35,253 nt of DNA, from positions 1 through 35,253 of the forward strand of contig JAGORO010000012.1 of NCBI GenBank assembly GCA_018062785.1, written 5' to 3'. The position numbers were made by a program, and so were the translations under genes. Below are positions 14,962 through 18,469 of this stretch, piece by piece. The notes under the pieces are model-generated. The model was not told the DNA's origin. It searched no databases and was given only the letters and a program-made list of their open reading frames with translations. The stretch comes from Candidatus Saccharimonadota bacterium (GTDB lineage: Bacteria > Patescibacteriota > Saccharimonadia > Saccharimonadales > UBA4665). Numbering within the stretch: the stretch's first letter is position 1; each line of letters begins with the position of its first letter.

Positions 14962-15480
14962 ATGAACGAAAGCCAAACAAGCGCTCCCCAAGCTAAGACC
15001 ACCTCTGGTAAATCGGCCATCCCAAGCGAAACCGTCCGTCCCACCAAGAAGCAAAAGGAGCTGCTAGAGTTTATCGAAAAGTTTATTGCCCAGCACGGCT
15101 ATAGCCCGAGCTACCGAGAGATTATGAATGGCCTAGACTACCGAGCGGTGGCAACGGTGGCGCAGCATATCCAAAGCTTGATTAGGCGCGGACATTTGCG
15201 CAAGCGCGACCATTCGGCGCGTTCTCTTGAGGTCGTTGCCCCGACGGGTGCGCCCGATTCGCTCGTGCCAACTAATCAAGTGAAGGCTGCTGATGAAAAA
15301 TGGCTCGTCGAGCGAGTTACTCAGCTTTTTGCCGATGTGGAGTCACAGGCAACAGTCACGCAGGAGCAGCTCGGCGATATTCAGATAGTACTCGCCGCGA
15401 TGCGTATTATTGGTCTAGAATCGGCGACGCAGAGTTTTGCTACAAGGCTGACGGAGCTAAAAAAAACACAAGTGGTATGA
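14962..15480 (+). CDS. LexA-type DNA-binding protein lacking the autoprotease domain
   Basis: A 172-residue protein. Residues about 28-95 (TKKQKELLEFIEKFI, HGYSPSYREIMNGLDY, VAQHIQSLIRRGHLRKR) match the LexA winged-helix DNA-binding domain in order. The remaining 75 residues are helical and contain neither the Ala-Gly cleavage site nor the Ser/Lys catalytic dyad of the S24 peptidase, so SOS-type self-cleavage is not expected. The first 25 residues are a polar tail. It is most likely a repressor whose signal-sensing part has been replaced. Predicted leaderless; the next gene starts 7 bases after the stop with a -10 box across the junction. Confidence 0.82.
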   Translation: MNESQTSAPQAKTTSGKSAIPSETVRPTKKQKELLEFIEKFIAQHGYSPSYREIMNGLDYRAVATVAQHIQSLIRRGHLRKRDHSARSLEVVAPTGAPDSLVPTNQVKAADEKWLVERVTQLFADVESQATVTQEQLGDIQIVLAAMRIIGLESATQSFATRLTELKKTQVV

Positions 15481-16159: not shown

Positions 16160-16261
16160 ATCTCGCATGCTTTCGAGTGGCTCGAGTGGTAAATAATACT
16201 ATATGTAGCGTATGGCCAAGCGTGCTAGACTCTAACTAGTCCAAATAAATTAACAAAATAA

Positions 16262-16398
16262 ATCGGAATCCTGTGAAATTCAGGAGCTGTGCCGCAACTG
16301 TAATGTGTGTGAGGTCTAACCTCTGCACCAAGCCAGACACGATTTTGTAAGACTTCCGAGCAGAAGCATCAAAACATGACACTATGTTGACATGTTTT
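16262..16398 (+). promoter_or_regulatory. Cobalamin riboswitch
   Basis: The conserved cobalamin aptamer core is readable. P3 closes TCGGAA (16263-16268) with TTCCGA (16354-16359). P4 is TCCTG/CAGGA around the TGAAATT loop (16269-16285). The conserved GCCGCAACTGTAA stretch follows at 16291-16303, then the P5 arm (16304-16329) and the B12-box-like AAGCCAGACAC (16330-16340). Downstream an AAAACATG/CATGTTTT hairpin (16371-16398) with a 12-nt loop is in the place of P13 and could make the L5-L13 kissing contact. The P5 arm is unusual: it contains a copy of a palindromic element found twice more at 17.8 kb. A weak TAGACT box near 16226 may be the promoter. Known class; the controlled gene is not. 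Confidence 0.87.
16306..16329 (+). repeat. Palindromic element copy A, in riboswitch P5
   Basis: GTGTGAGGTCTAACCTC (16307-16323) is identical to the consensus of the element seen at 17798 and 17864; the right arm ends TGCACC in place of ACACC. Confidence 0.75.
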
Positions 16399-16406
16399 GG
16401 CGTATA

Positions 16407-16431
16407 ACCCTCGGAAAACGAGGGTATTTTT
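16407..16431 (+). terminator. Riboswitch expression platform: terminator/anti-SD hairpin
   Basis: ACCCTCG and CGAGGGT form a 7-bp stem with a GAAAA loop, followed by A and five Ts that end directly at the ATG (16432). The right arm contains GAGGG seven bases before the ATG, the only candidate ribosome site of the gene. The same hairpin could therefore stop transcription or hide the ribosome site. Confidence 0.75.
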
Positions 16432-17592
16432 ATGTTTACCGCCGAGCGAGTAGCCGAGCAGCTACCAAAAACTGACCAATTTGACCGCTATTTGCGCGAC
16501 TACAACGATACGACCACTTGGTTTGCCGAGGTGCTTGATGGGTCGATGCGTACGCCTTTCGAGTACAACTTTGATGGCCAGGAGCTGTACGCTGATGATG
16601 GTGCGGCGCTCCGGCCGATTTTCGAAGATGCTCTGCAACATGCGGAGCAAATAATCACTAACGAGCCTGTGCTTTCATTCGAGAAGCGTCGCCGACAGCA
16701 CGAACTAGATGAATACGAGGATATGATTGCTATGGCCAAGGGCAGTCAGCCGAACACCATGGTGGTCGTATCTGATTTTCCTGAAGAACTACAGCATGCA
16801 CGCGCGGATGTAGGCGGCTACAATACGACACGCAAACAAACTATGTTGCGCGTTATTTATTGGCAAGATGGTCGCATGCACATGCTGTCACAGAGCTTGG
16901 ACGACTCGAATCGCCATGCTTTGGAGGCACTATATTCGCATATGGGGGCAAATGCGGAGCAGGGTGAATTACTCGGGCAGAGAATCCACGCAAATTTGGA
17001 CACGGAGGATCAAAAATACCTTATTGATCGGCTGACGGGGGTGTACGATCGTGATCTCGAGCAACAGTTCGGGGGGGTGTGGCACGCTGGGCGCAAAGAA
17101 GCAAAGCTCGATACCTTTGCCTTCGCAAAGTCACAACACGATTTGGTCGACAGGTATATTGCGGCAAAACAAACCGGCACACTCTCGAACTATGAAGAAG
17201 TAAATATTTTAGCCACTCTCGATGCGCGGTATGCACGCGCAAAGCAGCCCGAGATTGTCACTGGCAAAGAACAGCTTGTCTGCAGTGCCTTTCGCCCACC
17301 AATACCACTTGCCGTAGAATTACGCGCTATGGGCGATGCTGCACGAGCAACCGGTAAGACATTTAGCGGTTGTGGTGGAACAGTGAGAGCAGGAGAGTCT
17401 AGTGCAGAAAGTCAGATGAACGAACTCGGCTATGGAAATGATGCGGGCGAGAGCAACGATGACGGCGGTGACGGCCTAGGGCCGCTAACATTCAGATGCA
17501 CCGAAGGACATACCAACACACGAAAAAAAGGCCAACTTTTAAAAGAGTGCCATGTGAAGGGCTGCAAGAAGGGTAGTGTAGGCTGCGGGTAG
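16432..17592 (+). CDS. Cobalamin-riboswitch-controlled protein of unknown function
   Basis: A soluble 386-residue protein that I do not recognise. No signal peptide or membrane helix, so it is not a transporter. The body (1-300) is acidic and mostly helical, with repeated charged stretches such as RRRQHELDEYEDMIAMAK. A mid segment VVVSDFPEELQHARADVGGYN and MLRVIYWQDGRMHMLSQSLDD looks like a beta-rich insertion. A low-complexity linker with Gly/Asp/Ser (about 330-350) leads to a Cys/His tail: C356-x3-H360, C373-x4-C378-x6-C385, a possible metal site. The start is fixed by the riboswitch platform. In free-living bacteria this riboswitch class controls B12 synthesis, uptake or B12-independent isozymes; none of those families is visible here. 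Confidence 0.8.
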   Translation: MFTAERVAEQLPKTDQFDRYLRDYNDTTTWFAEVLDGSMRTPFEYNFDGQELYADDGAALRPIFEDALQHAEQIITNEPVLSFEKRRRQHELDEYEDMIAMAKGSQPNTMVVVSDFPEELQHARADVGGYNTTRKQTMLRVIYWQDGRMHMLSQSLDDSNRHALEALYSHMGANAEQGELLGQRIHANLDTEDQKYLIDRLTGVYDRDLEQQFGGVWHAGRKEAKLDTFAFAKSQHDLVDRYIAAKQTGTLSNYEEVNILATLDARYARAKQPEIVTGKEQLVCSAFRPPIPLAVELRAMGDAARATGKTFSGCGGTVRAGESSAESQMNELGYGNDAGESNDDGGDGLGPLTFRCTEGHTNTRKKGQLLKECHVKGCKKGSVGCG

Positions 17593-17607: not shown

Positions 17608-17775
17608 ATGAGTGACGATTTTGAGCCCTATACCGAGATGGTTAAGGAGAGGGCCCCAGGGCTATTTTGTGAAGTTTGTGGGTTTTACCCGATTGAACCA
17701 GTGCATGGTCACTTTGCCTGCCCGTCATGCAAAAACATTACCAAATGCTGCGAAGGCCTCCCGCAGGATGTCTAG
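17608..17775 (+). CDS. Small zinc-ribbon protein, 55 residues
   Basis: A short gene with a clear zinc-binding pattern: C21-x2-C24 (CEVC), C38-x2-C41 (CPSC), with H33, H35 and C47-C48 nearby. The N-terminal 20 residues are acidic. No ribosome site is visible; a TATACT box 9 nt before the ATG suggests a near-leaderless message. It starts 15 bases after the riboswitch-controlled gene, which itself ends in a Cys/His tail, and overlaps the longest-start version of the NadD-like gene by 8 bp. The reading frame is different from the longer frame that covers it, and the cysteine spacing argues that this one is real. Function unknown. Confidence 0.72.
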   Translation: MSDDFEPYTEMVKERAPGLFCEVCGFYPIEPVHGHFACPSCKNITKCCEGLPQDV

Positions 17776-18469
17776 CGGAAAAGAACAGCATCACAATGGT
17801 GTGAGGTTAGACCTCACACCAAAAAATGCCATCCAAAGGGGTAAATTCCATGTAAATGCTCGTGGTGTGAGGTCTAACCTTTCACCAAAGAGGGTAGGGG
17901 TGTTTGCGGGGAGTTTTGATCCAGTACACGCGGGGCATATTACGTTTACATTACAGGCCATCGAAGTTAGCCAACTTGACCGCGTATACTTCATGCCCGA
18001 GCGTGAGCCGCGCGGCAAAAAGACTGAGTACTATGGGCATAGAGTGGCAATGCTTTCACGGGCCTTGAGGCCATACGGGAGAATGTTTGTGTTGGAGACC
18101 GTAGAAAAACAGTTTGTAGTGCGACGTACGCTTGCGCACCTTCGGCAGCAGTTCCCCAATGCTAGGTTTGTATTTTTGCTTGGCTCTGATACGGCGAAAG
18201 GGCTTACTGCTTGGCCTCACGTAAAGAGACTACTTGGGGAGGGTGAGCTTTGCATTGCTCTGCGCAAAAAGGACACGAAGCAGGAAATGCATCAGGCACT
18301 AGATCTTCTGCCGATACCCCCAGCCGGTTTAGTCTTACTCGAGGGAGTAGAAAAGCACGTCTCATCGTCGTCGATACGCATGGCCTTAGCGAGCGGTACA
18401 GGGGCTATCGGGTTGCTCAAAAGTGTCTACTATTATGCGCGCCGCGAATGGCTATATCTGCATAACTAG
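17768..18469 (+). CDS. NadD-like nucleotidyltransferase with repeat-encoded N-terminus
   Basis: A cytidylyltransferase-fold enzyme resembling nicotinate-nucleotide adenylyltransferase. GSFDPVHAGH (49-57 in this numbering) carries the HxGH nucleotide site, FLLGSDTAKGLTAW is the NadD-type central motif, and VSSSSIR replaces the usual ISxTxIR near the end. About 190 residues from GVFAGSF, normal for NadD. The start is unclear: ATG 17768 overlaps the zinc-ribbon stop and adds 44 residues, partly encoded by two palindromic elements (peptides GVRLDLTP and GVRSNLSP). GTG codons at 17801 and 17867 lie inside those palindromes. NAD synthesis is likely, but a different nucleotidyl transfer cannot be excluded. 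Confidence 0.78.
   Translation: MSSGKEQHHNGVRLDLTPKNAIQRGKFHVNARGVRSNLSPKRVGVFAGSFDPVHAGHITFTLQAIEVSQLDRVYFMPEREPRGKKTEYYGHRVAMLSRALRPYGRMFVLETVEKQFVVRRTLAHLRQQFPNARFVFLLGSDTAKGLTAWPHVKRLLGEGELCIALRKKDTKQEMHQALDLLPIPPAGLVLLEGVEKHVSSSSIRMALASGTGAIGLLKSVYYYARREWLYLHN
17798..17820 (+). repeat. Palindromic element copy B
   Basis: Perfect 10-bp arms GGTGTGAGGT and ACCTCACACC around the 3-nt loop TAG. It lies in frame in the extended N-terminus of the NadD-like gene. Confidence 0.9.
17864..17886 (+). repeat. Palindromic element copy C, opposite orientation
   Basis: GGTGTGAGGT, loop CTA, ACCTTTCACC: the same element with the loop read from the other strand and two mismatches in the right arm. It is 43 bp after copy B and ends 14 bp before the conserved part of the NadD-like gene. 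Confidence 0.88.

Follow-up and report, generated by a model that had tools for sequence, protein, structure and literature searches.

Our analyses suggest that Saccharibacteria, which are host-dependent epibionts with tiny genomes, carry a starvation gene repressed by vitamin B12 whose product may handle scarce cobalamin, an explanation that we hold, taken as a whole, with middling confidence. That an OFF switch stands before this gene is in itself very probable, its architecture being read from sequence and conservation and its ligand and direction being what we infer. The gene encodes 386 residues and lies at 16432-17592 on the forward strand of the 35,253-nt stretch of DNA analysed here (the window), which belongs to an 862-kb genome that is 96.7% complete. 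A preliminary description of this DNA had taken the genome to be of CPR type, and this assignment is right because those relatives of the protein that carry a name derive from assemblies of 'Candidatus Saccharibacteria bacterium'. The RNA belongs to a class already known. What appears undescribed is the protein family that it controls, the fold of this family, and the way in which the family dominates the order's B12 regulon; a search of the open-access literature (subscription papers and preprints aside) turned up no paper that describes cobalamin riboswitches in Saccharibacteria or in Patescibacteria at large.

The preliminary description had recognized a cobalamin riboswitch with a readable core and proposed an Rfam/Infernal check. 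In this check, cmscan matches the cobalamin riboswitch aptamer RF00174 (clan CL00101) at 16231-16360 on the forward strand over the full length of the model, with a covariance score of 36.4 bits (E 7.3e-6) that exceeds the gathering score of 31.5 bits. Of the extent given earlier, 16262-17592, the motifs and the ORF are as claimed, but the aptamer begins ∼30 nt further 5'. The match is the sole RNA found by cmscan in the window and the only cobalamin riboswitch in the genome. Both core motifs are present, GCCGCAACTGTAA at ∼16291-16303 and AAGCCAG at ∼16330, and the B12 box and kissing loop can be recognized from the core GCCGCAACUGUAA, AAGCCAG, and a conserved L5 UGCCG set against an L13 CG(A)GCA. 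The L5 loop (16290-16294, forward strand), the predicted kissing partner of L13, is found in a UGCCGC context in 45 of 45 riboswitches from the source genome and its relatives. The peripheral arm (∼16305-16330) lacks the long P8-P12 extension and consists of a short hairpin.

An expression platform follows right after the aptamer, as had been noted, and occupies 16353-16431, directly before the ATG at 16432. It starts with the P13 hairpin CUUC-CGAGCA-GAAG (16353-16366, forward strand), recognized from its sequence and conserved loop; its loop L13, CG(A)GCA, is able to pair with the L5 UGCCG with one bulged base, and CGNGCA recurs in 39 of 45 loci, where the bulged base may be A, G, U, or C and the pairing bases are constant. 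The segment UUCCGAG (16354-16360, forward strand) would form an antiterminator arm by alternative pairing with CUCGGAA at 16410-16416, a 7-bp pairing that, in the window, has a shuffling-based p of 0.025; across 36 genomes, which are related to each other, pairing between the P13 region and the 5' arm of the downstream hairpin is above shuffles (Fisher p 7.8e-10). This terminator-like hairpin, ACCCUCG-GAAAA-CGAGGGU, is seen in the sequence and in fold prediction and, with the AUUUUU that follows and runs directly into the AUG, spans 16407-16431 on the forward strand; its 3' arm contains a Shine-Dalgarno-like GAGGG (16420-16424) located 7 nt upstream of the ATG. By a strict criterion, 18 of 45 loci have such a hairpin with its U run, compared with 1% of shuffles; these are mononucleotide shuffles and hence a mild control. 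Alternative pairing and terminator-like hairpin thus both exceed shuffled sequence, and the platform, with its kissing loop, P13/antiterminator, and terminator-like hairpin also hiding the Shine-Dalgarno sequence, is likely of the OFF type. When B12 is plentiful, the aptamer would bind adenosylcobalamin or a related corrinoid, L5 would kiss L13, and P13 would be stabilized; with P13 stable, the hairpin at 16407-16425 would form, so that transcription would end and the ribosome-binding site would be hidden. When B12 is scarce, P13 would open, UUCCGAG would pair with CUCGGAA, and the hairpin would be blocked, allowing the 386-residue protein to be made. One might instead suppose that the riboswitch is degenerate or a chance match and does not regulate the ORF, given that the score is only moderately above the cut-off and that many relatives fall below it, but the aptamer, kissing loop, terminator, and position are conserved across the order, making this highly improbable.

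A repressing corrinoid riboswitch using L5-L13 kissing has been dissected experimentally for Priestia megaterium metE (PMC10653944), and the RNA described here shares with it the kissing loop, P13, an antiterminator built from P13 and the terminator arm, and the OFF logic. Here, on the other hand, the L13 pairing is bulged, the 5' side and loop of P13 rather than its 3' side appear to pair with the terminator arm, and the terminator abuts the ATG, also hides the Shine-Dalgarno sequence, and has as its target a protein of no known family. A parallel case is Mycobacterium tuberculosis ppe2 (PMC11260477), where a B12 OFF switch likewise stands before a gene whose lineage-specific product has an uncertain function, although PPE2 is a PE/PPE protein encoded in an operon with cob genes and is unrelated to the protein studied here.

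The linkage between switch and protein extends over the order. Homologues of the protein exist and the switch is conserved before them, two points that the preliminary description had put forward as checks. RF00174 was found in 125 of 295 genomes of the order (128 riboswitches in all); a profile of the A-type protein matches 42 and a broader profile 142 of the same 295. A family member lies on the same strand within 1.1 kb downstream of 99 of the 128 RF00174 riboswitches, a count that carries ascertainment bias because the ORFs used to build the broad profile had themselves been collected downstream of riboswitches; at the level of genomes, which are related, family and RF00174 co-occur with an odds ratio of 16.8 (p 4e-26). 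The protein-only search with the A-type profile is a cleaner test of linkage than the broad-profile count, and among 22 distinct loci examined in addition to the known ones, 19 are preceded by a correctly oriented cobalamin-clan riboswitch. Among 32 genomes with the protein and without an RF00174 match, 28 have a cobalamin-clan match, weak or better, in the upstream region and on the expected strand, of which 12 are at E < 0.01, mostly to AdoCbl-II or AdoCbl, and the weaker 16 are suggestive only.

Two further subtypes align with the A-type over nearly the full length (hhalign E 8e-31 and 8e-15, probabilities 99.9 and 98.4), and AlphaFold models of two subtypes have the same order of helices and strands; as judged from these profile and model comparisons, the three are one superfamily. 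A D-type (G030, G050, G011, G048, G024, G041) is counted in the family by position, Cys motif, and zinc ribbon, its homology being unproven at hhalign E 0.05 and 0.009 with a probability <5%. A sample of 380 genomes of the phylum outside the order gave two partial matches only, confined to the zinc-ribbon region, and by these profile searches the family is specific to the Saccharibacteria order. The idea that the zinc-ribbon tail is a tag carried by many proteins was rejected, as the tail is found essentially only on the family, one per genome. A second copy in G048 (contig C47, L136) is probably on a contaminant contig because the family gene there and one in G109 agree in score and in the span matched. 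A phage or defense origin of the family found no support in PHROGs or PADLOC, and the family was not found in viral contigs.

The protein was described earlier as a soluble 386-residue product of an unrecognized kind, outside the known B12 regulon and ending in a Cys/His tail suggestive of a metal site, and all of this stands, with the qualification that the similarity of the tail to zinc ribbons is weak and at profile level. The ORF is confirmed at 16432-17592, no membrane span is predicted, and no match was found in Pfam, NCBIfam, PDB sequences, or PADLOC, nor a convincing one in PHROGs. Known B12 transporters, adenosyltransferases (ATRs), and isozymes gave no family-model or fold match in Pfam, NCBIfam, PDB, or Foldseek, and the protein is unlike the classical members of the B12 regulon. 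Structure prediction and comparison, also proposed earlier, gave a confident AlphaFold2 model (mean pLDDT 86.7, pTM 0.77, from an alignment of 31 homologues gathered here), for which Foldseek returned no match at E ≤ 0.001 against PDB and viral models, the best PDB TM-scores being <0.2 and nothing in the viral models (BFVD) being convincing; no known fold is used here in the sense that no solved or viral structure resembles the model. The model of a second subtype (G020, pLDDT 86.5) has its elements in the same order and likewise no PDB match.

The modelled protein comprises a core (19-271), a helix (293-307), a hairpin with the nearly invariant C314 in the loop between two short strands, and a C-terminal zinc ribbon with C356, H360, C373, and C378, and also C385. 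In alignments, E33, S114, C314, and the ribbon residues C356 and C373 are the most conserved across subtypes, and neither a conserved His nor a DxHxxG motif could be recognized in the family. Of 68 protein entries, a set in which one protein may appear more than once, 62 strictly keep the Cys/His spacing of the ribbon, and the tail resembles Elf1, RPB9, and ribosomal zinc ribbons, so far as weak profile matches tell. Judged from these motifs, the C-terminal domain is probably a zinc-binding ribbon. Across the family no membrane span is predicted, except for one protein with a likely mis-called start, and no signal peptide is evident. The protein is thus probably a cytosolic, zinc-binding member of an order-specific family without detectable known fold. 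Several members with a tail beyond the ribbon (L064, L073, L057, L043, L044, L092, L100) terminate in LAA, VAA, or LAG, which may resemble an ssrA-type degron; as a raw count, 8 of 56 distinct ends fit.

The gene content of the lineage gives this switch a physiological context. Class II NrdJ exceeds its cut-off in 55 of 60 relatives, and 57 of the 60 have CobA/BtuR, with the source genome counted in both figures; none of the 60 encodes a PduO-type ATR; DUF6580, the one predicted uptake gene tested, occurs in 7 of 60. On the basis of these counts, the lineage appears to take up corrinoid, to have it adenosylated by CobA, and to rely on the resulting AdoCbl in dNTP synthesis. As nearly all genomes carry an AdoCbl-dependent ribonucleotide reductase (RNR) together with CobA, the family would be the dominant B12-starvation gene of a B12-dependent lineage, and since the switch-protein pair recurs in a lineage that mostly has the B12-dependent RNR, it is probably part of coping with B12 shortage. 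A gene that is on at low AdoCbl should have a product that helps to obtain, keep, or spare AdoCbl; however, the family was not found in about half of the sampled genomes and NrdJ is nearly universal, so the protein would not be essential for B12 use. The absence of PduO-type ATR from all 60 relatives despite NrdJ might suggest that the protein is a new corrinoid adenosyltransferase acting in place of PduO/CobA, but a CobA/BtuR-type ATR in 57 of 60, the source genome included, makes such an activity very improbable.

The other targets of the riboswitch help to rank the remaining functions. In several genomes (G002, G005, G007, G129, G166, G116, G141, G105) it precedes genes for a DUF4430 protein and a DUF6580 membrane protein, as at loci L040, L052, L060, L077, L172, and L177, and in G018 and G035 the switch is followed by DUF4430 and DUF6580 and then by the family member in an operon; the DUF names come from domain tests for G018 and G005 and from inspection by eye and a DUF6580 search in the other genomes. 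DUF4430 is the domain found at the C terminus of transcobalamins (PMC4350170). From this context, DUF4430 and DUF6580 are predicted to be a B12 uptake pair in which DUF6580 would be the importer. The family gene usually has as its upstream neighbor a LexA-like DNA-binding protein (14962-15480 in the window, forward strand; PF01726, E 7.8e-15), found in about two-thirds of riboswitch loci, and as its downstream neighbor a nadD-like nucleotidyltransferase domain (17900-18382, forward strand; PF01467, E 4.2e-14), found in about half. In G002 and G005, which belong to the genus of the window, the DUF4430 and DUF6580 genes sit at the lexA-nadD locus, where other genomes have the family gene. A strict mutual exclusion between the family and DUF6580 does not hold, as G007, G018, and G035 have both. 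Because of this exchange at the same site and the operon linkage, cobalamin capture and handling is ranked first among the functions considered: we tentatively propose that the protein improves the capture, retention, or delivery of scarce cobalamin, with C314 possibly acting as a cobalt ligand. Against such a role, the modelled fold resembles no known B12 protein, and a cytosolic zinc-ribbon protein would not be an obvious transporter part. BtuM, a B12 transporter, uses a cysteine as cobalt ligand (PMC6072759), and the one conserved cysteine of the family could speculatively serve in the same way, but BtuM is an integral membrane protein for which no sequence or fold similarity to the family was detected. 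The fullest form of this proposal, in which a new Saccharibacteria-specific fold handles cobalamin via C314 and solves the missing B12-acquisition step of the order under a B12 OFF switch, seems unlikely to hold in its entirety.

The riboswitch also precedes the alpha subunit of a class I RNR in G034, where beta follows, and in G185 (loci L053:379-4002, where beta follows, and L185), and this enzyme behind the switch is predicted to be a B12-free isozyme under B12 control. A reading of the second G034 switch as preceding a class II RNR was rejected, since NCBIfam gives class I and nrdB follows. The nrdAB precedent, a true B12-free substitute controlled in two relatives, places second a function in which the protein does not touch cobalamin and instead helps the cell to survive a stall of class II RNR, for instance by restricting replication, by sparing or scavenging deoxynucleotides, or by binding nucleic acid or RNA polymerase via its ribbon. 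The resemblance of the ribbons to Elf1, RPB9, and ribosomal zinc ribbons and the usual presence of lexA upstream would fit such a B12-sparing factor; on the other hand, the zinc-ribbon similarity is of a weak and generic kind, the position of lexA next to the gene may be passive, and the same-site exchange involves uptake-type rather than replication genes, so that we consider sparing possible but doubtful. The LexA-like protein at 14962-15480 has the DNA-binding domain only, and classical self-cleavage is not evident for it because Pfam finds no S24 peptidase domain.

The remaining switches stand before further zinc-ribbon proteins, by appearance distant members of the family, and before a few unrelated ORFs; in G071 and G101 (L181, L184), a weak cobalamin riboswitch match lies before long acidic proteins of no evident family. 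The riboswitch of the order shares with the classical B12 regulon (uptake, biosynthesis, and B12-independent isozymes) the control of class I RNR and of a predicted uptake pair, whereas its dominant target, the 386-residue family, fits none of those categories. As counted from these sequence matches, the family is the commonest member of the Saccharibacteria B12 regulon that the present finding identifies, and it has no recognizable relative or fold. A single gene and a single RNA now give a direct way to test how Saccharibacteria obtain or economize B12. According to a recent review, an inducible system for Patescibacteria is yet to be developed and riboswitches are named as candidates (PMC11665869); a native B12-repressed leader could serve as such a regulated expression tool.

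The family has diverged strongly in place, with a median pairwise identity of 25% versus 61% for the neighboring lexA and 43% for nadD, and its identity is uncorrelated with that of nadD (r 0.05). Within the genus of the window, G000 and G004 carry an A-type body and G001 and G006 a B-type body, and the ribbon is similar in all; because A- and B-type bodies share a similar ribbon within one genus, bodies and ribbons seem to have been exchanged at one locus behind a constant switch. This divergence and the different combination of N-terminal and zinc modules within one genus might point to a diversifying, host-directed or antagonistic factor that is delivered or displayed to the host under B12 starvation to gain B12 or an edge, but neither a signal peptide nor a membrane span can be recognized, zinc ribbons rich in Cys typically belong to the reducing environment of the cytosol, there is no toxin, defense, or phage-family match, and the family was not found in viral contigs, and we regard such a factor as distinctly improbable.

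Two smaller features accompany the gene. A 55-residue zinc-ribbon-like protein (FCEVCGFYPIEPVHGHFACPSCKNITKCCEG; 17608-17775, forward strand), recognized from the recurrence of its motif, is conserved beside the family gene and was seen in at least 7 of 45 loci searched; this CxxC...CxxC protein (FCEVCG.YPIEPVHGHFACPSCKNITKCCEG) is also kept in G002, where DUF4430 and DUF6580 replace the family gene. A palindrome (GGTGTGAGGTCTAACCTCACACC and variants) is present in three copies within 1.6 kb, of which the one at 16311-16323 is the peripheral hairpin of the riboswitch and the other two (17798-17820 and 17864-17886) fall in the gap between the gene for the small zinc-ribbon protein and nadD; shuffled sequence gives hardly any chance matches. 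The core of the palindrome was not found in the other riboswitch loci compared, and therefore a genome-specific palindromic element may have entered the riboswitch arm.
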